Shown here one piece after another: positions 4,768 through 19,576 of a DNA stretch of 32,531 bases (position 1 is the stretch's first letter; every line of letters starts with the position of its first letter). The stretch spans positions 1 through 32,531 of IMG/VR virus record IMGVR_UViG_3300042453_003460, one strand, 5' to 3'. Origin of the DNA: a virus. The translations under genes were made by a program, and so were the position numbers. Under the pieces are notes generated by a model. The model was given only the letters and a program-made list of their open reading frames with translations. It was not told the DNA's origin and did not search any database.

Positions 4768-5292
4768 TTAAGGCTTGCTCCAGGCTTTGTGATTTGGGAA
4801 AGGTTGACCTCTCATATCAACAAATTTTTCAGTGGGTAATGATGCAACGGAGGGCCAATCTTTTTCTGGAACTTTCAAAAATCCTCCAACAACCCCAGAA
4901 AAAAAGTAACGATGAATAGTATTTCGAGGTACACCTACGGTACTGCCTTTATTTATTAGACCTTTTGCGATCCCTTCACGATATTGTCTCCCAACATAAT
5001 GTAAATTAATGCCAATAAAATATCCTTGATTAAAATTAATGTCGGTGATATATGCTAAGGGTTGTCTATCAAAGAATGATAATTTTGGTGTACTCGCTCC
5101 ATAGATGAAAAAATACATTCGTCCAACTTCAATTCCACCAGTATCGGAAAGGTTTATATCATCTTTTTGAAGTTCTCCAAGAACTTGTCTTAATCTTCCA
5201 CTGTACCAATCACCACTGCGATTTTTCTTTCCCGCTTCTCTTACAATCTGATCGCCAATGCCTTTTCCTCTTTCATATGGAACGTCTCTCAT
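4768..5292 (-). CDS. Conserved T4-like virion assembly protein of unknown role
   Basis: A 174-residue protein beginning MRDVPYERGKGIGDQIVREA. It has a central segment GRMYFFIYGASTPKLSFFDR (about 57-76) followed by QPLAYITDIN, GYFIGINLHYVGRQYREGI and a basic region. The pattern of a short beta strand, 'FDRQPL', then 'G(Y/F)(F/L)G(I/L)NLHY' recurs, to my recollection, in structural clusters of T4-like marine phages, but I cannot name its T4 counterpart with confidence (gp2, gp3 or a hub protein are possible). It overlaps the gp4 stop by 4 nt (ATGA) and abuts the gp48-like start, so it is co-translated with morphogenesis genes. No signal peptide or membrane segment is visible. Confidence 0.7.
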   Translation of the reverse strand: MRDVPYERGKGIGDQIVREAGKKNRSGDWYSGRLRQVLGELQKDDINLSDTGGIEVGRMYFFIYGASTPKLSFFDRQPLAYITDINFNQGYFIGINLHYVGRQYREGIAKGLINKGSTVGVPRNTIHRYFFSGVVGGFLKVPEKDWPSVASLPTEKFVDMRGQPFPNHKAWSKP

Positions 5293-5732
5293 ATTCCTAA
5301 ATCCTCCTCGGTCATGATTCGGAATTCATAGTTACGATCTGCACAATATTCTCTTGCTGCTTTCCACTTCGCTTGGTTCTTAACCCAAGTTTGAACCTTG
5401 TAAGCCCATGCCTTTGTTCGTCTTTTAGGATTTTGTTCTGGCATTTCTAGTTCTTTTTTGGGTTTAATTTCTATTACAACTGTTCGTGTATTTCCATCTT
5501 TATCTTTATATTTGACAAAGAAATCTGGGAAATATCTATGAACTTTTCCATCAAGAGGAGATTTATAAGGTATCCAAAATTCTTCTGATTGCCATTGGTT
5601 TACATTTTCATTTAAATCGCAGTACCTCATGAACTTTCGTTCCCACAAAGAACGATAGATAATATTTGTGGGATCACCTTTGTATTTTTTTGGATTTTCT
5701 GGACGATATTTTCCCTTATAACTCATATACAT
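5289..5732 (-). CDS. gp4: gp4-like head completion protein with nuclease-type motif
   Basis: A 147-residue protein close to T4 gp4 (gene 50/4, 150 aa), including YRPENPKKYKGDPTNIIYRS near the start and the SLWERKFMRYCD helix (28-39). It shows a PD-(D/E)XK nuclease pattern: E31, P69-D70 in RYFPDFF, and E88-I-K90 in VVIEIKPK. In T4, gp4 is needed to finish heads so that tails can attach; its biochemical reaction is not settled. It is the first gene of the minus-strand operon, about 20 nt downstream of a TATAAATA late promoter. ATG at 5732 gives MYMSYKGK; the second ATG at 5726 (MSYKGK) is an alternative. Confidence 0.92.
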   Translation of the reverse strand: MYMSYKGKYRPENPKKYKGDPTNIIYRSLWERKFMRYCDLNENVNQWQSEEFWIPYKSPLDGKVHRYFPDFFVKYKDKDGNTRTVVIEIKPKKELEMPEQNPKRRTKAWAYKVQTWVKNQAKWKAAREYCADRNYEFRIMTEEDLGI

Positions 5733-5751
5733 ACTATAGATACCTAAAAAA

Positions 5752-5759
5752 TATTTATA
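5752..5759 (-). promoter_or_regulatory. T4-type late promoter for the gp4 operon
   Basis: The minus strand reads TATAAATA, an exact match to the T4 late promoter -10 consensus (recognised by gp55 sigma with gp33/gp45 in T4). It lies 20 nt upstream of the gp4 ATG and inside the 28-bp gap that separates the divergent gp4 and gp54 genes. Confidence 0.75.
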
Positions 5760-5760
5760 G

Positions 5761-6732
5761 ATGGCTGAACCATTTAGGCCTGATTTTCCTGCAAATCAGT
5801 ACAGAGTAGATCCAATCTACGCAAGGATGACTCTGCCTAGAACTACGAATGATAATCGTTATTCTCTACCCAGTGTAAGAGAACTATTTGGTGAACTATC
5901 TGTAACTAGTCAATTCAAGGTTACACTATTCCTTGGAGATACTAACCCAAAAGAAAATTCGGACTCTGATATTAATGCCTGGTTAATAACTTGTGGAGTT
6001 TTGGGTTCACTTTTGCCAGGCGGAAAAGGATACATAAATGGACTTCGTTATGAATTTATGTGCAATGAAACTGCTCTTCCAGGGGTTTCATTGAGTATGG
6101 CGGAAGAAACTGGGAGTAGACAAGGAATTGTAGAAAGATTTCCAGTCAGAAGAGATTTTCCAGATGTCACTATGACATTTTACGTTGACGCGGAATATGG
6201 GATCATCCGTTTATTTGAAGAATGGATGAATTTCATTAATCCACTTTACAATACTAAAGGTAGATTAATTTCTGGAAATCCCAGAGGTGGTATTGGTCAA
6301 TTTGGTGAGGAACAATTTTTTAGATTTAGATATCCAAACACATACAAGAGAGATATAGCTATTACAAAATTTGAAAGAGATTTTTATATCGATCCAAATA
6401 CCAGAGGTGTAGAGAAGACACCTTCCATGTTGACCTATAAGTTTATTAATGCATTTCCAACTAATGTTACTGCATTGCCAGTAACTTATGAAGGCAGCAC
6501 CATTACGAAAACCACGGTAAGTTTTAACTATGATAGATATGTGATCCTAAATCATTTTGGTACAGGTCAAAATAATTACGAGAATTTAAATACCACAGAA
6601 AATGGAGAAACTGTGAGTTTTGCCAATCCTAGTGTTTCTTGGGCAGGAAATAACACCAATAGTGTTTTCGATAATCCGACATTTGGATTTAATTCTGGAA
6701 TTGACGTTTCACCATCTTTAAAACCACTCTAA
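5761..6732 (+). CDS. gp54: gp54-like baseplate tail-tube initiator
   Basis: A 323-residue protein, the same size as T4 gp54 (320 aa). Diagnostic segments are RYEFMCNETALPGVSLSMAE (about 98-117), ERFPVRRDFPDVTMTFYVDA, GIIRLFEEWMNFINPLY, YPNTYKRDIAITKFERDFYI and NAFPTNVTALPVTYEGSTIT followed by KTTVSFNYDRYVI, the tail-tube fold shared by gp19, gp48 and gp54. It initiates polymerisation of the tail tube on the baseplate hub. The last ~50 residues are Asn/Ser-rich and likely flexible. It is the first gene of the plus-strand baseplate operon. The ATG lies 1 nt from the late promoter element of the opposite strand, and no Shine-Dalgarno sequence is visible. Confidence 0.85.
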   Translation: MAEPFRPDFPANQYRVDPIYARMTLPRTTNDNRYSLPSVRELFGELSVTSQFKVTLFLGDTNPKENSDSDINAWLITCGVLGSLLPGGKGYINGLRYEFMCNETALPGVSLSMAEETGSRQGIVERFPVRRDFPDVTMTFYVDAEYGIIRLFEEWMNFINPLYNTKGRLISGNPRGGIGQFGEEQFFRFRYPNTYKRDIAITKFERDFYIDPNTRGVEKTPSMLTYKFINAFPTNVTALPVTYEGSTITKTTVSFNYDRYVILNHFGTGQNNYENLNTTENGETVSFANPSVSWAGNNTNSVFDNPTFGFNSGIDVSPSLKPL

Positions 6733-6735
6733 ATA
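6728..6735 (+). promoter_or_regulatory. Late promoter motif TCTAAATA before gp26
   Basis: TCTAAATA matches the T4 late consensus TATAAATA at 7 of 8 positions and overlaps the gp54 stop codon (6730-6732). It lies 25 nt before the gp26 ATG. The same octamer occurs before the tail fibre gene (20993-21000), which supports its role. Confidence 0.55.
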
Positions 6736-6759
6736 AATTTAACTGATTACATCATTAAT

Positions 6760-7488
6760 ATGCCATTACCAAAAATTGCGACTCCAACTTATGAACTTGA
6801 GTTGCCATCTACAGGAAAAACGATAAAATACAGACCATTTCTAGTTAAAGAAGAGAAAGTTCTAATTTTAGCTTTAGAAAGTCAAGATGTAAAACAAATT
6901 ACTCTTGCAATCAAATCTGTTTTAAAAGATTGTATCATTACAAAGGGAATCAAAGTAGAAGAATTACCTTCATTTGATATTGAATATATTTTCTTGAATG
7001 TTCGTGGAAAATCAGTAGGAGAATCCATCGATCTGGTAGTAACTTGTTCAGATGACGGTGAAACTGAAGTTCCTGTAAAAGTTTACGTTGATGAAGTTAC
7101 AGTTAAAAAAGATCCAGAACATACTACAGAAATCAGAGTTGATGATAAAATCGTAATTAAAATGAAATATCCATCTTTGGATCAATTTATTAAAAACAAT
7201 TTTGATTTTACTGCACAAGAATCAGTTTCTACGATTGAAAAGTCATTTGATATTATTTCTGCGTGTATTGAATCAATCTTTACCGAAGAAGAAGCTTGGG
7301 CTGCTGCAGATTGCACTAAAAAAGAACTCATTGAATTTATTGAAAGTATGAATGCAGATCAATTTAAGAAGATCGAAAAGTTCTTTGAAACTATGCCCAA
7401 ACTTTCACATACATTTAAGGTAGTGAATCCAAATACTAAAGTTGAAAATGAAGTAACTCTGGAGGGTCTGACAAGTTTTTTCGGCTAA
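6760..7488 (+). CDS. gp26: gp26-like baseplate hub subunit
   Basis: A 242-residue protein of the T4 baseplate gp26 family (T4 gp26 is 208 aa). Recognisable parts are MPLPKIATPTYELELPSTGK (1-20), TIKYRPFLVKEEKVLILALE (about 21-40), and FDIEYIFLNVRGKSVGE. The C-terminal helical part ends in a SHTFKVVNPNTKVENEVTLE segment and LTSFFG. It belongs to the central hub assembly pathway of the baseplate. It is followed after 2 nt by the gp51-like gene, the usual T4 order (26-51). Confidence 0.88.
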   Translation: MPLPKIATPTYELELPSTGKTIKYRPFLVKEEKVLILALESQDVKQITLAIKSVLKDCIITKGIKVEELPSFDIEYIFLNVRGKSVGESIDLVVTCSDDGETEVPVKVYVDEVTVKKDPEHTTEIRVDDKIVIKMKYPSLDQFIKNNFDFTAQESVSTIEKSFDIISACIESIFTEEEAWAAADCTKKELIEFIESMNADQFKKIEKFFETMPKLSHTFKVVNPNTKVENEVTLEGLTSFFG

Positions 7489-7490
7489 TT

Positions 7491-7676
7491 ATGGCTCATA
7501 TTGATCTTGAGTCATATTTCCGTATTAACTTTGCCCTCATGCAGTTCCATAAATACTCTTTGACTGAGATTGAAAACATGATGCCTTGGGAAAGGGATAT
7601 TTACCTTACCTTGTTGAGAATACATATTGAAGAAGAAAACCTAAAGGCACAACAGGCAGCAAATCGTGGCAGTTAG
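7491..7676 (+). CDS. gp51: gp51-like baseplate hub assembly protein (short form)
   Basis: A 61-residue protein containing FRINFALMQFHKYSLTEIEN (about 10-29) followed by MMPWERDIYLTLLRIHIEEE. The helical pattern with a PWER.IY.. core recurs in the short proteins placed after gp26 in cyanophages. T4 gp51 is much longer (249 aa), so the name rests on position and family resemblance. In T4, gp51 acts catalytically in hub assembly and is not in the virion. The stop overlaps the next gene by 11 nt. The position just before tape-measure-like genes is also that of tail assembly chaperones in other phages. Confidence 0.65.
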   Translation: MAHIDLESYFRINFALMQFHKYSLTEIENMMPWERDIYLTLLRIHIEEENLKAQQAANRGS

Positions 7677-9435
7677 TTCAGTACTCAATCCATCTAGTAT
7701 TGTAAGAGAAAGATCTACCACGGCTGCAGCTGCACAGAATTTTATTACTGGCGGATCTCCTCTGGGTGAGGGTGTTATCGCCATGGCTGCAAATAAAATT
7801 GTAGGCTTCCAAAGAGGTGCTGCTGGAGTAGCTGCAAGACCACCAGATCTTCAAGGAATTATTCAGACATTATCCACAAGTATTCTGAATAACGTAGAGA
7901 ACCGAGTACAATCAATAAATCAAAACGTACAACAAACTGTTGTTAAAACAATTAAGGGTCTTGGGGAAGATTATAAAGGACGATTGGATAAGATTGATGC
8001 AGCTAAACCAAATTCAATCTTACAAAATTTCTTAAACTTATATAAATCTGCTCTTGAGTACATTCAGTTTTTAGGAAATAGAAAAAACGTAAGAACTCTT
8101 GGAGATAACTTAAAAGCCTTACAGAATATTTTTACAGAAACTTTTAATGTTGCGAAGTTAATTCGTCAAACAATTGTAAAAATAGTAAAACAACTTTCTA
8201 GTTTACCCAAAGCAACTCCAGGTGGGCCTGGATTAAATTTAGATATTGAAGTGCCTGGAGGTGGTTTGAAAAAAAGTGCTCCAACAGGACTGATGAGGAT
8301 GATGCGTCGCCGTCCAGGACTCATGTTGGGTGGTGCTGCATTAGCTGGAGGTTTGGGCACTCAAGTAGTCAGTGGGATGTTGGATGTTGGTGGAGATGTT
8401 CAAGCTGCACCGATGTCTGAGGGTACAATACCTACCACATTATTAGATAGATTTAGTGGTATTTTAGATAGATTTTCTGCAGCGATTAATTCACTTGGTC
8501 AGACCAGACCTAAAACTCAAGCAGCTACAATGGCTCCTTCAACTTCTACCCCTCCGCCGCCAGATGATAAAAAACCACCTGGACCCGGTGCAGGCGAAGT
8601 TTCTGCAGTAAGTTCTGCACCTGGAGATGAAAAATTAGCCGCATTTGTTGCAAGTATGGAGGCATCATCTCCAGAGAATGCTGCTGATGCTCTACAAGTC
8701 ATGTTAAATCGTGCATCATCTGGATACAGCAAACAAGGATTAGCTGGAGTTATATCAGGTAGAGAACAATTTTCGCCTTTATCTGCAGCAATATATGGAA
8801 CAAGTGCTGATCGAGCAGCTGCTAGAAAATATGGACCAATTGCTGCAAGATTGCCTGGAAATACTCCTCAAGAAAAATTTAAGTATTTGCAACAAGTTGC
8901 TTCACAACCTGATGGATTAAATAAACTTCAACAAATTTTTGGAGGCGGATCCCCTGGGGTTGCAGCAACAATACTAAACGATCCAAAATATTTGGAAATG
9001 TCTAGAAAAAATGTGAAGGGTGCTTTAAATTTCGGAGCAGGATCAATTGCAAAACCAGGAGACGTTAAAATTAGACAGGGTGGAAATTATTTCTATAATT
9101 TTACAGGGAAAATAGGTACTTTAAGTGGAAAACCGACTGGAGTTGCACAACCACTACCACCATCTAAAGTTGCACCCGCACCTACTCCAGCTGCGACTCA
9201 ACAACAAGTTGCACAAACTGTTTCTAGACCACCAGTTCAACAAGCACCGCAAATTACTGTTGCTCCAATGAACATGGCAAGCCCACAAACTCAATCAACT
9301 GAAACTGGTGGAAGAGTTATACCACCACCACAAAAGATTAATGGTGGAGTGAGTGTACCATTTTTATCTTCGTCCAACGACGATAACTTCCTTTCTTTAT
9401 ATTCTAAGTTAGTTTATAACATCGTAGACGGATAA
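7666..9435 (+). CDS. Virion protein with SleB-like cell-wall hydrolase domain, tape-measure candidate
   Basis: A 589-residue protein started by GTG at 7666. Residues about 60-185 are helical and likely coiled. A hydrophobic Gly/Ala segment (about 215-245) follows, then a Pro-rich linker (about 285-315). Residues about 325-440 resemble the SleB/hydrolase_2 fold: VASMEASSPENAADALQVML with candidate catalytic E332, then NRASSG, GVISGREQFSP and a helical tail. That family cleaves peptidoglycan glycan strands. The C-terminus is Pro/Gln-rich. Its length is nearly that of the T4 tape measure gp29 (590 aa), and its position in the hub cluster supports a role inside the tail. Whether this or the next gene is the true tape measure is not decided by the sequence. 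Confidence 0.7.
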   Translation: MAVSSVLNPSSIVRERSTTAAAAQNFITGGSPLGEGVIAMAANKIVGFQRGAAGVAARPPDLQGIIQTLSTSILNNVENRVQSINQNVQQTVVKTIKGLGEDYKGRLDKIDAAKPNSILQNFLNLYKSALEYIQFLGNRKNVRTLGDNLKALQNIFTETFNVAKLIRQTIVKIVKQLSSLPKATPGGPGLNLDIEVPGGGLKKSAPTGLMRMMRRRPGLMLGGAALAGGLGTQVVSGMLDVGGDVQAAPMSEGTIPTTLLDRFSGILDRFSAAINSLGQTRPKTQAATMAPSTSTPPPPDDKKPPGPGAGEVSAVSSAPGDEKLAAFVASMEASSPENAADALQVMLNRASSGYSKQGLAGVISGREQFSPLSAAIYGTSADRAAARKYGPIAARLPGNTPQEKFKYLQQVASQPDGLNKLQQIFGGGSPGVAATILNDPKYLEMSRKNVKGALNFGAGSIAKPGDVKIRQGGNYFYNFTGKIGTLSGKPTGVAQPLPPSKVAPAPTPAATQQQVAQTVSRPPVQQAPQITVAPMNMASPQTQSTETGGRVIPPPQKINGGVSVPFLSSSNDDNFLSLYSKLVYNIVDG

Positions 9436-9439
9436 TATT

Positions 9440-11335
9440 ATGGCAGTAAAAAAATCCGAGCTTTTACAATCACCATTAGCATCAGCATTTAATAATATTG
9501 TAAGTATTAGTAGATCTCGAACTGCAATGAGATCTACTCAAAATTCATATGATGATTTTTTGAGGTTTATGAATGTTGAAATTAAAAATATAGAGGCAAT
9601 AAAACTACCAGAAAGTAAACAGATCAAAAAATTAGAGAATATTAACGTTTCAACAACTTTTGGATCTGCTGGAAATTTATTATCAAGTTTAGCAAGTGGT
9701 GCGTTAGATGTTGGAGGTTTTATTGGAAATTTTTTTGGTGGTAGAAAGAAACCGAGTCCAAATGCAGGAAAAGCAATACCAAGAAATAAAGGTTTTAAAC
9801 TAGGTGGAGTAAAAGCTCTTGGAGTCGTAAATGCAGCTTTTGCTGGATTGGATTTTGTTCAAGGTCTTCAAGAAGGAGAAAGTATGAGTAAAGCTGCCGC
9901 AGGTGCAGGTGGTAATCTTGCTGGTAGTTTGATCGGTGGTGCTATTGGACAAGCATTGGTTCCAATTCCAGGATTGGGATTTGTTTTGGGTAGTATGGCT
10001 GGAGGTATGTTGGGCGGATATCTTGGAGATCGTGCTCACGAAGTTGTAACAGGAGAAGGGGGAGGGGATGTAAAAGAAAAAACAGAAAGAAGATTAAAGG
10101 AACAAGAACAACGACAAAAGGCTGCAGCAGCTGCATCTCTTACTGCAATAACATTTCCAGAAGTTCTTGATAAGTTTGATGTTGTAGTAACTCAATTTGA
10201 AAGAATGATCCAAAATCTTGCTGCAGGAACTACAGAAACTTCTGATGAATGGGAAATGGGAGAAACTGATGAAGATAAAATAGATTATAGACCACCAGGC
10301 GCTGAAGAATTTACTCCAGGAGCTCCAACAGGGTCCGGTGATGAAATATTTCCTCTAGTTGGTGGTAGACCCACCTTTACTATGGGCCCAGGTCTTTTTA
10401 ATGCTTCTCGTGGTAGGAGAAGACATAGTGCTCAAGATATTGGAGTAGACCCAAACACCCCTGTAGTTGCATCCAGGTCTGGGAGAGTTTTAGATGCATA
10501 TTCAAGTGGATATGGTAGTGCTGGTGGTGCAGTAATTATAAGATATGATAATGGACAACAAGGTCTTTATGGCCACGTTGATCCAAATGTAAGAACAGGA
10601 GATAATGTAAAAGCTGGACAAAGAATAGCAAAAGTTACTCCAGATGGGGGAAATACGCATTTACATTACATGCGTAAAGATACTCGTGGTAATTATATTG
10701 ATCCTTTACCAATTTTACAAAAAAGTAAATCCGGAGTACCAATTGTTCAAGGACAAAAACAAGAATCGAAAAAAGATTTACAACAACAATCTCAATTCGG
10801 AAAAGATACTGGAGATGCCATGTCAATGGTATCTAAAAAAAGTCCAATGATGACAAAACCAGGATCTGCAACCGCAAAACCATCTCAAGATCTTTCCCAA
10901 ATGTCAACGGATCAACTCAAAGGAATGTTGGATCCAACAATGACTGGTGCTGCAAATCCTGCAGTATTCAGAGCCTCACAAGAAGCTAGAATGAAAGGTC
11001 AAGAATCTGGATTAACTGGAGAAGATCTTGAACGAGCAGTGATGATTGCAACAATTAGAGCAAGAAATGTAGAATCACAAGTCATGGCAATGGCACAACA
11101 ACCCGTAGTGCCTCAACAACTTGAACAATATCCAGATTATAATTTACCACAATCGAGTGTAATGATTATTCCAATGATGATGGGAGGATCTGGTGGAGGT
11201 TCGCAACAAAGACCGATGGTAGTTTCTTCGGGTGGAGGTGGTGGAGGAACTACAATCATGCCTCCAGTTCCTAAAGGTCAAGTGTTAAATAGTTTATTTA
11301 AAACCTTATTATTGACTAATTTATCGGGAGCATAA
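9440..11335 (+). CDS. Virion protein with M23 (LytM-type) peptidase domain, tape-measure candidate
   Basis: A 631-residue protein. Residues about 110-200 are Gly/Ala-rich and hydrophobic (for example LVPIPGLGFVLGSMAGGMLG), as in membrane-inserting parts of tape measures. A charged helical region follows. Residues about 310-425 form an M23 metallopeptidase domain with all expected residues: H329 and D333 (HSAQD), H379 (YGHVD), and H407 and H409 (THLHYM). M23 enzymes cut the peptide cross-links of peptidoglycan. The C-terminal third is Met/Gln/Gly-rich and low complexity. It begins 4 nt after the SleB-like gene and both start MAV. Together they would let the tail breach the cyanobacterial wall. 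Confidence 0.85.
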   Translation: MAVKKSELLQSPLASAFNNIVSISRSRTAMRSTQNSYDDFLRFMNVEIKNIEAIKLPESKQIKKLENINVSTTFGSAGNLLSSLASGALDVGGFIGNFFGGRKKPSPNAGKAIPRNKGFKLGGVKALGVVNAAFAGLDFVQGLQEGESMSKAAAGAGGNLAGSLIGGAIGQALVPIPGLGFVLGSMAGGMLGGYLGDRAHEVVTGEGGGDVKEKTERRLKEQEQRQKAAAAASLTAITFPEVLDKFDVVVTQFERMIQNLAAGTTETSDEWEMGETDEDKIDYRPPGAEEFTPGAPTGSGDEIFPLVGGRPTFTMGPGLFNASRGRRRHSAQDIGVDPNTPVVASRSGRVLDAYSSGYGSAGGAVIIRYDNGQQGLYGHVDPNVRTGDNVKAGQRIAKVTPDGGNTHLHYMRKDTRGNYIDPLPILQKSKSGVPIVQGQKQESKKDLQQQSQFGKDTGDAMSMVSKKSPMMTKPGSATAKPSQDLSQMSTDQLKGMLDPTMTGAANPAVFRASQEARMKGQESGLTGEDLERAVMIATIRARNVESQVMAMAQQPVVPQQLEQYPDYNLPQSSVMIIPMMMGGSGGGSQQRPMVVSSGGGGGGTTIMPPVPKGQVLNSLFKTLLLTNLSGA

Positions 11336-11336
11336 T

Positions 11337-12635
11337 ATGTCAAATGCGGTAACAACTTTAAAATATAATTCTGTTATAATTCAATCTTCGGATGGTAATA
11401 AAAATATTGATTTAACGAATTCTATTATATTTTGTGATTATTATGAGGATATTCTATCCCCATGCGTAATGATGACAATTCAAGTTGCTGCAACATATTC
11501 CATTTACAATGGACTACCAATTCGTGGTGGAGAAAGAGTGGACGTAGATATTGAAACTTATAGTGGAAATTTTAAACTCACTGGTGATTATGCAATGTAT
11601 GTTTATAAAGTGAGTGGAATTGTTTCAGATGGAGCAAAAGAATATTTTACATTACATTTATGTTCTAGAGAAGGTCTTACAAATGAAACCGCAAGAGTTC
11701 AAAAGAAATATGAGAAAAAACCAATCAATGAACATGTAGAAGCAATTCTTAAAGATGTTTTACTAACGAAGAAGTTCAAGTCGCAAAATATAGAAAGAAC
11801 ATCAAATTCTTATAGTTTTATTGGTACTCTTAAAAAACCATTTCATGTTTTAACTTGGTTAGGCCCAAAAGGTGTCCCAACAACATCATCTTCGGGAAAT
11901 AGTGGAAAAGTTGCAAAAGGAGTTGCTGGATTTGTTTTTTATGAAAACAAAGATGGATTTCATTTCAGAAGCATTGATACTTTAGTTTCATCCACACAAA
12001 CTCAAAGTGGAAGTACATCTAAAGAATCTATTCCTCAATACAAATATAGCCCAAATGTAACTGAAGCTAATAATCCAGAAAATAACTTTAATATCCTCAA
12101 TTATAATTTTGAAAAAAATACAGATCTTATGAAATCACTGAGGGTTGGTATGTATGCGAATATAACATATTTTTATGATCTTTATGAAAATAAAATTGAT
12201 AGGATTGACTATAGAATAACAGATCAAATTAAATCAAAACTTGGTAGTTCTAAACCACCATTTCCAAAAGTATTTGGAGATAAACCATCTAGAATTCTTT
12301 TCAGATCTTCAGATGTTGGAATGTTAGATGCAAGTGGAGAAACGGAAGATTCTGGTAGAGATAATACTGATATGGCTAAGTCATTTTCTCGTTATAATTT
12401 GCTGTTCACACAAGCACTAAATATGATAGTACCGATGAATATTAATTTAAAAGCGGGAAACATAGTTTATGCACAGTTCCAGCAAATTGATGCGGGAAAA
12501 TCGGGTGAAGTTGACCCAGAACAAAGTGGAAACTATTTAATCAAAGAAGTGAGACATCATTTTGAAGGGGGTCAAATGATTTCTTCATTAAAACTTATCA
12601 GAGACTCCTACGGACTATATGGAGCAAAACAATGA
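11337..12635 (+). CDS. gp27: gp27-like baseplate hub protein
   Basis: A 432-residue protein (T4 gp27 is 391 aa). Features include IIFCDYYEDILSPCVMMTIQ (about 31-50), the NSYSFIGTLKKPFHVLTWLG stretch (about 157-176), GFVFYENKDGFHFRSID, and a late NLKAGNIVYAQF plus SGNYLIKEVRHHFEGGQMIS strand pair. gp27 forms the trimeric torus at the hub centre that adapts the sixfold tail to the threefold gp5 spike. Its stop overlaps the CP12 start by 4 nt (ATGA), so the metabolic gene is translationally coupled to it. Confidence 0.82.
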   Translation: MSNAVTTLKYNSVIIQSSDGNKNIDLTNSIIFCDYYEDILSPCVMMTIQVAATYSIYNGLPIRGGERVDVDIETYSGNFKLTGDYAMYVYKVSGIVSDGAKEYFTLHLCSREGLTNETARVQKKYEKKPINEHVEAILKDVLLTKKFKSQNIERTSNSYSFIGTLKKPFHVLTWLGPKGVPTTSSSGNSGKVAKGVAGFVFYENKDGFHFRSIDTLVSSTQTQSGSTSKESIPQYKYSPNVTEANNPENNFNILNYNFEKNTDLMKSLRVGMYANITYFYDLYENKIDRIDYRITDQIKSKLGSSKPPFPKVFGDKPSRILFRSSDVGMLDASGETEDSGRDNTDMAKSFSRYNLLFTQALNMIVPMNINLKAGNIVYAQFQQIDAGKSGEVDPEQSGNYLIKEVRHHFEGGQMISSLKLIRDSYGLYGAKQ

Positions 12636-12844
12636 GTAACATAGACGAACACATCCAAAAAGACAAAGAAATTCTTGATAATCCTGTGACTTCTCCACAG
12701 GCAAGAAGACATACTCAAGAAGAATTAGAAGCTTTAGAAGCTTACAAAGTCAATCATCCCGATGATGATCATGATCCAACTCCCTTTGAATTGTATTGTG
12801 ACGCAAATCCCGATGCTTTAGAGTGTAGAATTTACGAAGACTGA
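12632..12844 (+). CDS. cp12: CP12-like Calvin-cycle regulatory protein
   Basis: A 70-residue acidic protein whose C-terminal third matches CP12: FELYCDANPDALECRIYED (52-70) with the cysteine pair C56 and C65 in the C-x8-C spacing of the GAPDH-binding loop. Residues 28-40 (TQEELEALEAYKV) correspond to the helix carrying the CP12 core motif. The N-terminal cysteine pair of plant CP12 is absent, as in several cyanobacterial forms. CP12 ties GAPDH and phosphoribulokinase into an inactive complex; cyanophage CP12 is proposed to block carbon fixation and favour the pentose phosphate route. It sits between gp27 and gp5 with overlaps of 4 and 1 nt, so it should be expressed with late baseplate genes. 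Confidence 0.82.
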   Translation: MSNIDEHIQKDKEILDNPVTSPQARRHTQEELEALEAYKVNHPDDDHDPTPFELYCDANPDALECRIYED

Positions 12845-15063
12845 TGATTGATGAATCTTTTATAAAATCTAATTTTTTAGGTAAAGACGGTTTCATTTGG
12901 TGGGTTGGCCAAGTGGCTGACCCCAAAGTTTGGCGTAATGATAAAACACGTATTGATAACGGAAAAGACGCTTGGGGATATAGATGCAAAGTAAGAATTA
13001 TTGGATATCACAGTTTTGATAGTAATGAATTAAAAGACGACGATTTACCTTGGGCCCATATATTAACAAGTGCATCTGATGGTGCTCCAGGTCAAGGAGG
13101 TTTCGGAAAATTACCATTACTTGTTGGTGGAGAATCTGTAGTTGGATTTTTCTTAGATGGAGAAGAAGCTCAACAACCTGTTGTCATGGGTTGTTTCCAT
13201 AGAAGTCCAGCAGTAGTAAATGTAGATAACGGAGAACCTTTCCAACCTTTTACTGGAAGCAAAGCAACTGCTCTTAGAACTGGACCACAATCAACAAGAA
13301 ATAAAGCCCAAGATGACGGAACTTCTAAAGAAATAGAAGAAAATCTGGGGCCAGGATCTCAATTTGAAATGCTCTCAAATCCAAAGTTTGGGGTGGATTC
13401 CGAAGGTAGTTTAGATTTGGATCCCGCATTTAGTCCGTTTACTACAGATACCAGTAGTAACGCTGGTGCAACTTTTGGAGCTCCAAATATACCCCAAGAT
13501 CAACTATTTTATACCGACAAAGCGGAAGCTGGATTTTTGACGGAAGTAAAAAATCTCGGTCCAGTTGAAGGAGAAAATGGATGTGGAAATAATATTCTAG
13601 CTCAAATAACCAATGCTTTACAAACATTCATTCGCACAATCAACGGTCTTGAAAAAACTGCTTTAGGATTTATAGATCCAGTTAGAAATGTTGTGGTAGA
13701 TATTCAACAAACTATTAGGTCTGTAGCTAGATTAGTTGCATCCATCATGAAATTTGTAATTAATGGTATGCGTGATGGCATTTTTAAATTGATTGGAAAG
13801 TTGTTCAAGCTTCTAGGAATTACGATTCCATCCCCACTACAGTTACCTATTTCTGAAGCTGCAAAGAATATTATGAATATAATTTTTTGCATCTTTGAAA
13901 AATTATTTGGACCTTTAATGGATTACATTATGGGACTTTTAAATGGTGTAATAGGCAAAAGTCCAAATATTCCTAGATGTGCAGTTGAAGAAATTACTGG
14001 TGCATTGGTGAATAAACTTGGTGATATGATAGATGGTGCTCTATCTTCTATCTTATCTGGTTTAGATTGGTTAGCAAATGGAATTAGTTCTATTGCTGGA
14101 GCTCTTACATCTGGTTTGGACCTGATTGGACAACTTCTAAGTTTCTTAAGTTGTGATTCATTGGCATGTAAGAGTACTACATCATGGGATCCTTTTGCTG
14201 GAGTAGCTTTCCCATCAATGGATAGTTGGAACAATGTTCTAGGAAATATGGATATTCTAAATGGTCTTGGGTCACCTGATCTAGCTTTGGGATACCTCTC
14301 AGCATTTGGTTCTTCGGATACTCCATTTAAAAACTGCAGAAAAACAATTGTAAATCCACAGACACAAGATGATCTTGGTGCAATGCCGATTGGAGTTAAA
14401 TTCTATAAGTGTATTCCACCAGAAGTTAGAATATACGGGGATGGTGTTGGTGCAAGAGCAAAAGCTGTTGTTTCTGAAGTTGACGGATCAATTGTCACAT
14501 TTTTATTATGCGATCCAGGAAGAGGGTATACTTATCCACCAGAGATTAAAATAGTCGATAACTCTAATTATGGTAGAGGTGCTCAGGCAAAAACTAAAAT
14601 AGTAAACGGAAGAATTGAATCAATTTATATTGAGAATCCTGGTAGCGGATATTGTCAAACCAACTTAGTGGAAGAAACTTCTCCAAAAACTAGTGAGGAT
14701 GGTCTAATAATTCCACCATGTCTAGATGTTGGAGAAAGTAGAATAGGAACAAATGTAGTAGGAATCAATACCAATCTTGTTATAGAAAGACCAGGAATAG
14801 GGTACACCTCTGGAGACACAATACAAGTTGGGGATTGTTTTTATCAACCAGTTCTTACCGAAGGTGGATCTATCATTGACTTCAAATCGAGTTCAAGTTG
14901 CAAACAAACGTTTAAGAGCCCTCCAGTAGTGAGCATAAATACAAAGACGGGTGAAGGTGCTGTAATTTATCCAGTTCTACAATTTGTTCCACAATTTATT
15001 GTAGATAATCCCAATTTGAGTGTTGGAATAACTTCAGTTATAAATGTAGTAGATTGTGTGTAA
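12844..15063 (+). CDS. gp5: gp5-like baseplate hub protein with OB fold, no lysozyme domain
   Basis: A 739-residue protein. Residues 1-130 fit the gp5 N-terminal OB domain: GFIWWVGQVADPK, WGYRCKVRIIGYHS, DLPWAHILTSASDGAPGQGG, a glycine turn, GFFLDGEEAQQPVVMG. T4 gp5 then has a lysozyme domain, but nothing like the T4 lysozyme motif is visible here. Instead residues about 246-442 form a long, hydrophobic, helical stretch with several Cys. Residues about 530-739 carry GxGY repeats (PGRGYTYPPEIKI, PGSGY, PGIGYTSGD) like those in gp53. The triple-stranded needle that is C-terminal in T4 gp5 seems to be encoded by the next gene. Called as the spike/hub OB protein on N-terminal similarity and context. 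Confidence 0.75.
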   Translation: MIDESFIKSNFLGKDGFIWWVGQVADPKVWRNDKTRIDNGKDAWGYRCKVRIIGYHSFDSNELKDDDLPWAHILTSASDGAPGQGGFGKLPLLVGGESVVGFFLDGEEAQQPVVMGCFHRSPAVVNVDNGEPFQPFTGSKATALRTGPQSTRNKAQDDGTSKEIEENLGPGSQFEMLSNPKFGVDSEGSLDLDPAFSPFTTDTSSNAGATFGAPNIPQDQLFYTDKAEAGFLTEVKNLGPVEGENGCGNNILAQITNALQTFIRTINGLEKTALGFIDPVRNVVVDIQQTIRSVARLVASIMKFVINGMRDGIFKLIGKLFKLLGITIPSPLQLPISEAAKNIMNIIFCIFEKLFGPLMDYIMGLLNGVIGKSPNIPRCAVEEITGALVNKLGDMIDGALSSILSGLDWLANGISSIAGALTSGLDLIGQLLSFLSCDSLACKSTTSWDPFAGVAFPSMDSWNNVLGNMDILNGLGSPDLALGYLSAFGSSDTPFKNCRKTIVNPQTQDDLGAMPIGVKFYKCIPPEVRIYGDGVGARAKAVVSEVDGSIVTFLLCDPGRGYTYPPEIKIVDNSNYGRGAQAKTKIVNGRIESIYIENPGSGYCQTNLVEETSPKTSEDGLIIPPCLDVGESRIGTNVVGINTNLVIERPGIGYTSGDTIQVGDCFYQPVLTEGGSIIDFKSSSSCKQTFKSPPVVSINTKTGEGAVIYPVLQFVPQFIVDNPNLSVGITSVINVVDCV

Positions 15064-15066
15064 CTC

Positions 15067-15618
15067 ATGTCAGAACAACCAAAAGAGTATTACGAAAAGA
15101 AACCAGGATTTGTAGTAAAGTCAGGTACAAAACAAGAATTGACAGGAAAAACTACAGATTATGCAGTTTTTACTGATAATTCTCAAGGTTTTCAATTTAC
15201 TACAGATGGAGAACATACTCAGGTAACCAGAAAAACTTCTTATGATATTTCTGGTTTAGATGGTAAAGATGGAGTTCCTGGAAAAGTCATAAGAGTTAAG
15301 AAAGGTGATATTATAATTGAAGCTATGGATGGTGACATTATCATCCGAGGAAACAATATAAGATTTGTTGCATTAGATGGTGCTGGAGAAGTGACTGTAA
15401 ATGCAGGAAAACAATTTGCTGTAAATTCTCCGGTACAAAACATGAAAGGTGGTACATCAAATACAGTAATGTCAAATAGTGTTTCTGTTGGTGCTCAAGC
15501 AGTAGACACCACTGGAAATATGCAAAATACCCAATCCTCTGGGGTAGAAGAAGCCCAATCATCAATACTAAGCCGACTATTAGGAATTGTCAAAAAATTC
15601 CAGAATTGGTTAGAATGA
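15067..15618 (+). CDS. Beta-helical spike (gp5 C-terminal needle-like) protein
   Basis: A 183-residue protein. Residues about 75-120 show alternating short strands, KKGDIIIEAMDGDIIIRGNN then IRFVALDGAGEVTVNAGKQ, the pattern of the intertwined triple-stranded beta-helix in T4 gp5 and VgrG-type needles. The C-terminus (about 165-183) is an amphipathic helix ending in WLE. It follows the gp5 OB gene by 3 nt, as expected if the T4 gp5 architecture is split into two chains. The function (membrane-piercing needle) is inferred from pattern and position. Confidence 0.65.
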   Translation: MSEQPKEYYEKKPGFVVKSGTKQELTGKTTDYAVFTDNSQGFQFTTDGEHTQVTRKTSYDISGLDGKDGVPGKVIRVKKGDIIIEAMDGDIIIRGNNIRFVALDGAGEVTVNAGKQFAVNSPVQNMKGGTSNTVMSNSVSVGAQAVDTTGNMQNTQSSGVEEAQSSILSRLLGIVKKFQNWLE

Positions 15619-15631: not shown

Positions 15632-16501
15632 ATGCCTGCAGAACCCGTAAAGTATATTGGTGACAAACTAGTAGTAGGTCAAATTGATTATTCATTTTTA
15701 CCAGCAACTCCATCAATTCCTGGGTCAACTGTACTAAATGGTCCTGTTTGGATTGGTGCTGGAGGTCCACCGTTACCTGTAGCCAATTGCATGATTGGTC
15801 CAGGAATTCATCCAATCACCTTACAAGTAACTGGAGTATCAAATATTTTTGGAGTTGTTAATAGAGCTGCAGTATCGAATGTCACTGGATTAACTTCAAA
15901 ATTAGGAATAACCCTAAGAAATGCTCTAAGTTTAACAAATGGAATTAATATTAAAAATTCCTTGAATGAAGGAAGTGCAATTAATAACTTTAAAAAAGTA
16001 AATGTTGATACTACACTAGATTGCCCTCTAATTAATTGCGAATCTTTAAACTTTACCACTAAAATATTTGGTCAACATATCGATGTTGCTTCCATTAGAG
16101 CTTCATTTGGGGCTTTTTCATCAGTAGCAGCACCATTTAAACAATTTAATATTCCCCATCCAACAAAAGAAAACATGAGATTGGTTCATGTTTCATTAGA
16201 AGGTCCAGAAGCTGGAGTTTATCATAGAGGTAGATTAGTTAATTCAAATACCATTCAACTTCCAGATTATTGGAAAGGATTAGTTGATGCAGAAACAATC
16301 ACAGTTAACTTAACTCCACATGGATGTTATCAAGAATTATATTATGAAATTGGTAACTGGGGATCCGAAATCAAGGTAATAAATAATTCAGGTGGAAAAA
16401 TTGATTGTAGTTATATTATCCACGCAGAAAGAAAAGATATTCAAAAGATTGTTGTAGAACAACCAGTAGAAGAAAATAAAGTTTATCCAGAATCTCTATA
16501 A
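15632..16501 (+). CDS. Virion protein with tail-fibre/spike C-terminal beta domain
   Basis: A 289-residue protein. The N-terminal half (about 1-165) has short repeats of hydrophobic beta strands with Gly/Pro/Asn turns. The C-terminal domain (about 165-277) reads NIPHPTKENMRLVHVSLEGP then EAGVYHRGRL, LPDYWKGLVDAETITVNLTP, GCYQELYYEIGNW and CSYIIHAERKDI. To my recollection this IPHPTK..RL.H..LEGPE..VY.RG module occurs at the ends of fibre-like proteins in marine and cyanobacterial phages. Its place after the needle gene would also suit a spike-tip protein, but I see no clear PAAR motif. It has an unusually strong ribosome binding site, so it may be abundant. Confidence 0.65.
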   Translation: MPAEPVKYIGDKLVVGQIDYSFLPATPSIPGSTVLNGPVWIGAGGPPLPVANCMIGPGIHPITLQVTGVSNIFGVVNRAAVSNVTGLTSKLGITLRNALSLTNGINIKNSLNEGSAINNFKKVNVDTTLDCPLINCESLNFTTKIFGQHIDVASIRASFGAFSSVAAPFKQFNIPHPTKENMRLVHVSLEGPEAGVYHRGRLVNSNTIQLPDYWKGLVDAETITVNLTPHGCYQELYYEIGNWGSEIKVINNSGGKIDCSYIIHAERKDIQKIVVEQPVEENKVYPESL

Positions 16502-18250: not shown

Positions 18251-18306
18251 ACAGTTTAAAAACTGGCACATATCCAGTTGACACCCCAACCATCCCTTGG
18301 TATGAT
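18250..18306 (+). promoter_or_regulatory. Shared 21-bp element plus strong sigma70 promoter
   Basis: The element GACAGTT-n4-AACTGGCACA occupies 18250-18270. Downstream are a perfect -35 TTGACA (18278-18283), a 17-bp spacer, and -10 TATGAT (18301-18306). The predicted start is near 18313, after the GTG at 18309, so the small gene must begin at the ATG at 18333. Sister copies lie at 29341, 30415 and 31462. Confidence 0.85.
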
Positions 18307-18680: not shown

Positions 18681-18890
18681 ATGAATCCATTTAAAATCAG
18701 TTACAAAAATCTTTATGAATATCCAGTAAAAACAACTCCAGAGAATGTTCGTGAAGCCAATGAAGGATTGTTTCATGCTAAGATGACCTTACCCTCTGCA
18801 GCAAAACACTGCGGAATGACTCAAAAAGAAATGAAGTTGACATTCTTTGAGTTTTTAAAGTATAATCCTAAAACCTACAAACAAGAGTAG
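18681..18890 (+). CDS. Small hypothetical protein
   Basis: A 69-residue protein beginning MNPFKISYKNLYEYPVKTTP. The later part (LPSAAKHCGMTQKEMKLTFFEF) looks like a helix-turn-helix-type segment: a short helix, a turn at CGM, then a second helix. DNA binding is possible but unproven. The ATG at 18681 follows the preceding stop by 1 nt; an upstream in-frame ATG at 18648 lies inside the previous gene and is less likely. It is the last gene before tRNA-Leu. Confidence 0.6.
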   Translation: MNPFKISYKNLYEYPVKTTPENVREANEGLFHAKMTLPSAAKHCGMTQKEMKLTFFEFLKYNPKTYKQE

Positions 18891-18899
18891 GATTTTTAT

Positions 18900-18983
18900 G
18901 CGAGTATGGCGGAATCGGTAGACGCACCGGACTTAAAATCCGTTGGGATAAAACCCGTGGGAGTTCAAGTCTCCCTACTCGCA
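18900..18983 (+). tRNA. tRNA-Leu (anticodon UAA)
   Basis: Acceptor stem GCGAGTA (18900-18906) pairs fully with TACTCGC (18976-18982), with discriminator A at 18983. The anticodon loop CTTAAAA gives anticodon TAA, reading UUA. A long variable arm (TGGGATAAAACCC) marks a class II tRNA, and the T-arm contains GTTCAAGTC. No CCA is encoded. UUA is common in this AT-rich phage and rarer in GC-rich marine Synechococcus, which may explain its retention (inference). Confidence 0.95.
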
Positions 18984-18990
18984 CTAAATA
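18983..18990 (+). promoter_or_regulatory. Late promoter motif ACTAAATA before cpeT
   Basis: ACTAAATA matches the T4-like late octamer TATAAATA at 6 of 8 positions, starts on the tRNA-Leu discriminator base and lies 20 nt before the cpeT-like ATG at 19010. Confidence 0.5.
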
Positions 18991-19504: not shown

Positions 19505-19576
19505 GCCCTTGTAGCTCAGTGGTAGAGCAACGGTTTTGTAAACCGTTGGTCGCTGGTTCAAATCCAGTCGGGGGCT
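19505..19576 (+). tRNA. tRNA-Thr (anticodon UGU)
   Basis: Acceptor GCCCTTG (19505-19511) pairs with CGGGGGC (19569-19575) including two G-T pairs, with discriminator T at 19576. D-arm GCTCAGTGGTAGAGC. Anticodon stem ACGGT/ACCGT with loop TTTGTAA gives anticodon TGT, reading ACA. T-arm CTGGTTCAAATCCAG. No CCA is encoded. Confidence 0.93.

Follow-up and report, generated by a model that had tools for sequence, protein, structure and literature searches.

Why does a viral gene for CP12 lie among baseplate genes, and when would it be expressed from such a place? Auxiliary metabolic genes are usually assumed to be expressed early or middle, and in current models cyanophage CP12 blocks the Calvin cycle soon enough to supply nucleotide synthesis. 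We examined a stretch of viral DNA of 32,531 nucleotides (the window; IMG/VR record IMGVR_UViG_3300042453_003460) in which a sequence-only reading had placed cp12 inside a baseplate operon and treated that position as an anomaly. The reading that we favor, and hold to be likely, is that cp12 is here a late, promoterless, operon-borne gene for a GAPDH-directed CP12, with ribosomes passed from gp27 to cp12 and from cp12 to gp5.

The ORF at 12632-12844 (+ strand) starts with ATG and encodes 70 amino acids. Its product matched Pfam PF02672 well above the cut-off (E = 1.5e-14; 54.9 bits, cut-off 22.7; aligned over positions 5-70 of the 70 in the profile) as well as phrog_627 of PHROGs (7.6e-29), and its earlier identification as CP12 was borne out. 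The protein has two cysteines in all, C56 and C65, which form the C-terminal pair. The N-terminal cysteine pair is absent and so is the AWD_VEE core, the aligned region reading RHTQEELEAL with no AWD. The segment encoded by codons 50-70 (12779-12841, + strand) has a counterpart in host CP12 that binds GAPDH, and 15 of its 21 residues are identical to the CP12 peptide of PDB 3zdf. Residues C56, P60, E64 and C65 were invariant across 30 aligned CP12 sequences from phages and host MAGs. According to the available part of PMC3906501, which shows cyanophage examples, cyanobacterial CP12 classes are set by which of the classical features remain. Because the N-terminal cysteine pair and the AWD_VEE core are missing, we filed the window protein as CP12-C-like rather than classical. 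Judged from its sequence, it is best read as a CP12-C-type GAPDH inhibitor that would be synthesized late, and it most likely docks its C-terminal loop on GAPDH as host CP12 does, damping the Calvin cycle.

The neighboring genes were assigned by profile and by fold. The upstream gene (11337-12635, + strand) encodes a gp27-like baseplate hub protein, with a match to phrog_350 ("tail protein", 5e-100). An AlphaFold2 model of this protein was of moderate confidence (mean pLDDT 66.5, pTM 0.73); its best VIA-align matches were T4 gp27 chains, with 1k28_D first among the 994 chains aligned (Z 23.2, 329 residues, rmsd 4.0), and Foldseek ranked T4 gp27 third. The downstream gene (12844-15063, + strand) encodes a gp5-like hub and tail lysozyme protein according to phrog_1922 ("baseplate hub subunit and tail lysozyme", 6.8e-106), the sole Pfam support being a Gp5_OB match below cut-off (0.007). 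The names gp27 and gp5-like, previously given from sequence alone, were thus right, and the genes for the gp27-gp5 puncturing complex have cp12 between them.

These three genes belong to a longer run on the + strand. The first gene of the putative operon (6760-7488) encodes a baseplate hub protein, whose homolog is named "baseplate hub" in DSL-LC03 and "T4 gp26-like" in Syn9. It is followed by a gp51-like baseplate hub assembly catalyst (7491-7676; phrog_634, 1.7e-26), a gene of unassigned function with a weak, sub-cut-off cell-wall hydrolase match (7666-9435) and a gene with an M23 peptidase domain (9440-11335; PF01551, 2.9e-17). The M23-domain protein is possibly a tail-associated lysin. Downstream of gp5 lie two further genes of unassigned function, at 15067-15618 (an ORF) and 15632-16501 (phrog_17490). 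The gaps from gene to gene between 6760 and 18250 are 2, -11, 4, 1, -4, -1, 3, 13 and 6 nt. With gaps of 13 nt at most an intergenic promoter would not fit before cp12, and such tight packing agrees with the earlier claim that the gene is embedded in a structural operon.

Synteny of cp12 in other cyanophages had been put forward as a check on this arrangement. By tblastn, 372 of 50,697 phage records contained a CP12 relative, at one place per record. Among 25 cyanophage isolates (a non-random sample of best matches and an evenly spaced list, plus P-HM2 and Syn9), cp12 lay between gp27-like and gp5-like genes in 22 and outside this slot in S-SRM01, S-TIM5 and P-HM2. The gp27-cp12-gp5 slot was also found, by tblastn of gp27 or gp5, in 38 of 80 viral contigs, these being the best 80 of 122 related IMG/VR stretches. 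It spans many Kyanoviridae genera, and in P-HM2 and P-SSM2 gp27 is joined directly to gp5 with no cp12 between them. Variable cp12 positions, "near gp5" among them, are reported in the available text of Sullivan 2010 (PMC3037559). The slot is already known in outline and is ordinary for Kyanoviridae, and the view of the position as an anomaly does not hold. Outside the slot, the gene 5' of cp12 encoded a small conserved phrog_14124 protein of unassigned function in four of four loci tested (L045, L047, L051, L056). In one locus (L063) a ferredoxin-dependent bilin reductase gene (PF05996; 6354-6980) lies directly 5' of cp12.

NATAAATA is given as the cyanophage late promoter in the available part of PMC2984593. 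Positions -60 to -9 relative to gene starts were searched for the relaxed motif (A/C/T)TAAATA, which was picked after the junctions had been viewed. This element stood 5' of cp12 in 15/15 slot isolates with a gap of at least 12 nt, at -26 to -33 (for L100 the annotated cp12 start, with a gap of 1, was used in the slot-isolate count). Shuffled sequences, which here and in the sigma-70 tests preserve base composition only, gave a mean of 0.8 of 15 and a maximum of 5. Other starts with a gap of at least 12 nt carried it in 20/53 cases (Fisher p = 1e-5 vs cp12); for strict ATAAATA the figures were 7/15 for cp12 and 12/53 for other starts. When starts were sorted by annotation, the relaxed motif was present at 16/20 structural genes vs 4/33 others. 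Beyond the slot, 28/28 distinct cp12 loci had the element vs 20/273 other starts in the same stretches, with repeated proteins collapsed and with S-TIM5 and P-HM2 outside the set. With slot and non-slot loci taken together, its usual distance from cp12 is about 25-33 nt. The sequences flanking the element have diverged (14 clusters at 70% identity for 15 slot isolates, 12 clusters for 42 non-slot loci); the motif columns are invariant by construction, and the divergence of the flanks alone is informative in this comparison.

The element was not universal. Slot contigs with a gap of at least 12 nt had it in 1/5 loci (1/3 distinct), no (A/C/T)TAAATA was present before S-TIM5 cp12, and none stands directly before cp12 in the clade of the window. 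Two trivial origins were considered and rejected. A TAA stop codon could supply part of TAAATA, but the rates of 20/53 and 20/273 at other starts mean that stop codons alone do not explain the cp12 rates of 15/15 and 28/28. A promoter taken over from the host was set aside on the evidence of the host-like cp12 loci (L092-L096; MAG contigs, 53-56% identity), which are without the element. In the psbA-cp12 region of P-HM2, 11/37 starts carry (A/C/T)TAAATA, psbA and cp12 among them, and both are middle genes in that phage according to the part of PMC5082946 available; we therefore treat the element as a late-type signal and not as proof of late timing. Since most relatives with non-coding space carry it directly before the gene, late-type control would seem to be a general feature of cp12 in cyanophages. 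In the literature searched we found no report of a late-type element 5' of cp12 in phages both with and without the slot, and the available texts of PMC3037559 and PMC10452541 do not link cp12 with the late promoter.

A gp27 tree of 53 proteins separated phages with the late-type element from phages with the coupled arrangement, with 5 label changes over four groups where shuffled labels gave 17.3; repeated proteins were collapsed. Clustering of this sort is inflated by near-copies, and support at the deepest split is low (42/60). It follows from this separation that the two arrangements are lineage-wide and that the coupled one is not an accident of the window contig. One locus (L030) was omitted from the gap counts and the tree on account of a broken gp27 frame; at 5707-7001 its longest open part at the start is 115 amino acids, which reflects either a sequencing error or a decayed gene.

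With no element of its own, cp12 in the window would be transcribed by read-through from CTAAATA at 6729-6735 (+ strand), a one-base variant of the NATAAATA family that lies 31 nt 5' of the first hub gene and is the putative start of the transcript that bears cp12. A late-type element precedes the hub gene in 36/37 loci, P-SSM2 and S-RSM4 included and P-HM2 excepted. The lineage of the window may thus obtain late-type control of cp12 via fusion into the operon. Elsewhere in the window, a perfect TATAAATA at 5752-5759 on the minus strand stands before a leftward gene (ORF 5289-5732), and the rightward gene at 5761, back to back with it, has no TATAAATA-type element. Two entries in the list of gp19 elements (L018 and L022) were artefacts caused by a start at the edge of the locus.

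The strongest competing explanation is early or middle expression of cp12 by way of a cryptic promoter inside gp27, its place in the operon being incidental. On the + strand of the window, the interval 11551-13565 contains no start of a sigma-70-like site that scores at least 9 of 12. Within 110 nt 5' of cp12 the highest score is 8 of 12, no better than shuffles (p = 0.515), and synonymous divergence at the 3' end of gp27 stays within the range of the remaining gene, with no drop in synonymous rate. No excess of sigma-70-like sites was seen either, and none of these tests gave a sign of a cryptic promoter in gp27. Strong sites do occur within 110 nt before cp12 in other phages (11 of 12 in S-ShM2, 12 of 12 in S-CAM8 and S-TIM4), and because of these sites cp12 of S-ShM2, S-CAM8 and S-TIM4 may be early or middle. 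Syn9 (BSV9_gp17) and P-TIM40 (PTIM40_23), for which infection transcriptomes have been published according to the available part of PMC7238727, both have a slot cp12 with a late-type element, and 5' of the P-TIM40 gene we found no sigma-70-like site. The idea also gains from the statement, in the available part of PMC2984593, that early cyanophage promoters may not all match the sigma-70 consensus, and from the middle expression of cp12 in P-HM2 (PMC5082946, in the part available); P-HM2 cp12, however, is located elsewhere in its genome. There (L115, position 27302) TTGACA directly overlaps ATAAATA 5' of the cp12-talC pair, as expected if middle transcription relies on early and late elements that overlap, a view reported in the available part of PMC2984593. 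Altogether we consider a cryptic promoter unlikely for the window. Sigma-70-like sites are present just past the structural operon, at 18278-18306 (11 of 12) and 18837-18866 (12 of 12); they precede small ORFs, tRNA-Leu (18900-18984) and tRNA-Thr (19505-19576), and a block of early or middle genes probably begins there.

The operon is packed and has no sigma-70-like site near cp12, so the gene is most simply read as being expressed late, together with those for the hub proteins. Of the sequence-only reading, the part that tied cp12 synthesis to the structural genes stands on these grounds, and the framing of this tie as anomalous does not. Its premise that such a gene is expected early is doubtful, since the slot is widespread and relatives with room for a promoter mostly carry a late-type element; the sole timing that we found for cp12 is "middle", in the part of PMC5082946 available, and concerns P-HM2, whose cp12 adjoins talC and not hub genes.

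Translation may bind the gene still more closely to its neighbors. As had been noted from the sequence, ORF coordinates give overlaps on both sides: 4 nt (ATGA) with the upstream ORF 11337-12635, and 1 nt (TGATG) with the downstream ORF 12844-15063, the last base of the cp12 stop being the first base of the gp5 start. Gene overlaps of this kind are common in phage operons, and the notable point is the conservation of the junctions, not the overlaps as such. Among 18 distinct close relatives, the window included, the overlap of 4 nt with gp27 was found in 13, and that of 1 nt with gp5 in all 17 in which the gp5 start is present. A possible Shine-Dalgarno core of cp12, GGAG, lies inside gp27 at 12621-12624 (+ strand). 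Such a core (GGAG, GAGG or AGGA) stands 5' of cp12 in 8/18 distinct relatives and 5' of gp5 in 0/18. The cp12-gp5 junction is compatible with termination-reinitiation, which would tie gp5 synthesis to translation of cp12; ribosomes would be handed from gp27 to cp12 at ATGA and then from cp12 to gp5 at TGATG. Since the gp5 start shares a base with the cp12 stop and has no Shine-Dalgarno core before it, cp12 is probably locked in place, and its loss should probably impair gp5.

The same two features, TGATG in 17/17 relatives and no Shine-Dalgarno core before gp5 in any of 18, could also mean that ORF 12632-12844 is kept chiefly as a translational linker to gp5 and that CP12 activity no longer matters. 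The protein is too well kept for this to be at all probable. Median pairwise dN/dS was 0.079 for cp12 (177 pairs; 20 distinct close-clade genes) vs 0.163 for gp27 (190 pairs), which is under weaker constraint, and these values are rough, with synonymous sites near saturation (pooled pS 0.55). The gene is under purifying selection, and its low dN/dS indicates a protein retained for its sequence and not merely as a spacer. The cysteines and, by comparison with 3zdf, the GAPDH-contacting C-terminus are kept, and P-HM2 and P-SSM2 manage the step from gp27 to gp5 without any linker.

Very improbable indeed, the weakest of the readings considered, is that CP12 is made late and travels with the virion, within or close to the gp27-gp5 hub, to be injected and act in the next infection (if true, it would stop carbon fixation ahead of any phage gene expression): its position between the puncturing-complex genes in 22/25 isolates and its late-type elements speak for it, but the 30 proteins tabulated for the S-SZBM1 virion (Table 1, PMC9146016) do not include CP12 (which from gene order should be S-SZBM1_64) and do include the gp27-like S-SZBM1_65 (536 amino acids, matching its gene) and a 9.06-kDa protein, CP12 of S-SCSM1 lacks the "virion protein" note that two cp12 neighbors have (the gp27-like gene also lacks it), and many cp12 genes lie far from hub genes.

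Late, operon-borne expression thus remains the reading that we prefer, and from sequence comparison the pattern suggests that many cyanophages make CP12 late rather than early. Should the majority of cp12 genes in cyanophages prove to be under late-type control or fused to the late hub operon, the timing and purpose of the shut-off of carbon fixation would need rethinking; CP12 could, for example, act as a brake late in infection, while virions are assembled. The relatives form a natural series, from a late-type element with a sigma-70 site, through a late-type element alone, to a coupled gene with no promoter, which allows regulation of one metabolic gene to be compared between phages.

How far the window resembles known systems depends on which part is compared. 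Its cp12 belongs to the same gene family as that of the marine T4-like cyanophages (T4-GC 337 in the available part of Sullivan 2010, PMC3037559), and Syn9, S-ShM2, S-SM2, S-SSM7 and others have cp12 in the same gp27-gp5 slot. Most T4-like slot phages, however, have at least 12 nt and a late-type element before cp12, whereas cp12 of the window overlaps both neighbors and lacks the element; in these phages cp12 and gp5 are also often separated by cpeT or other genes, which is not so in the window. The coupled slot phages DSL-LC03, S-T4, Sf-CH5 and DSL-LC02 have gp27-cp12 gaps of -1, 2, -1 and 1 nt and, like the window, a 1-nt overlap with gp5. Their CP12 proteins are 71%, 67%, 51% and 63% identical to that of the window, respectively, and sequence divergence is the sole difference. 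The cp12-talC cassette of P-HM2 (PHM2_227-228) encodes a CP12 with the same C-terminal features, but this gene, unlike that of the window, is next to talC, with psbA, nrdC and td around them, and is middle-expressed according to the part of PMC5082946 available. Host cyanobacterial CP12 (PDB 6gfo/6gve, 3zdf) shares the C-terminal cysteine pair and the GAPDH-binding segment with the window protein, which in contrast to it has neither the N-terminal cysteine pair nor the AWD_VEE core.
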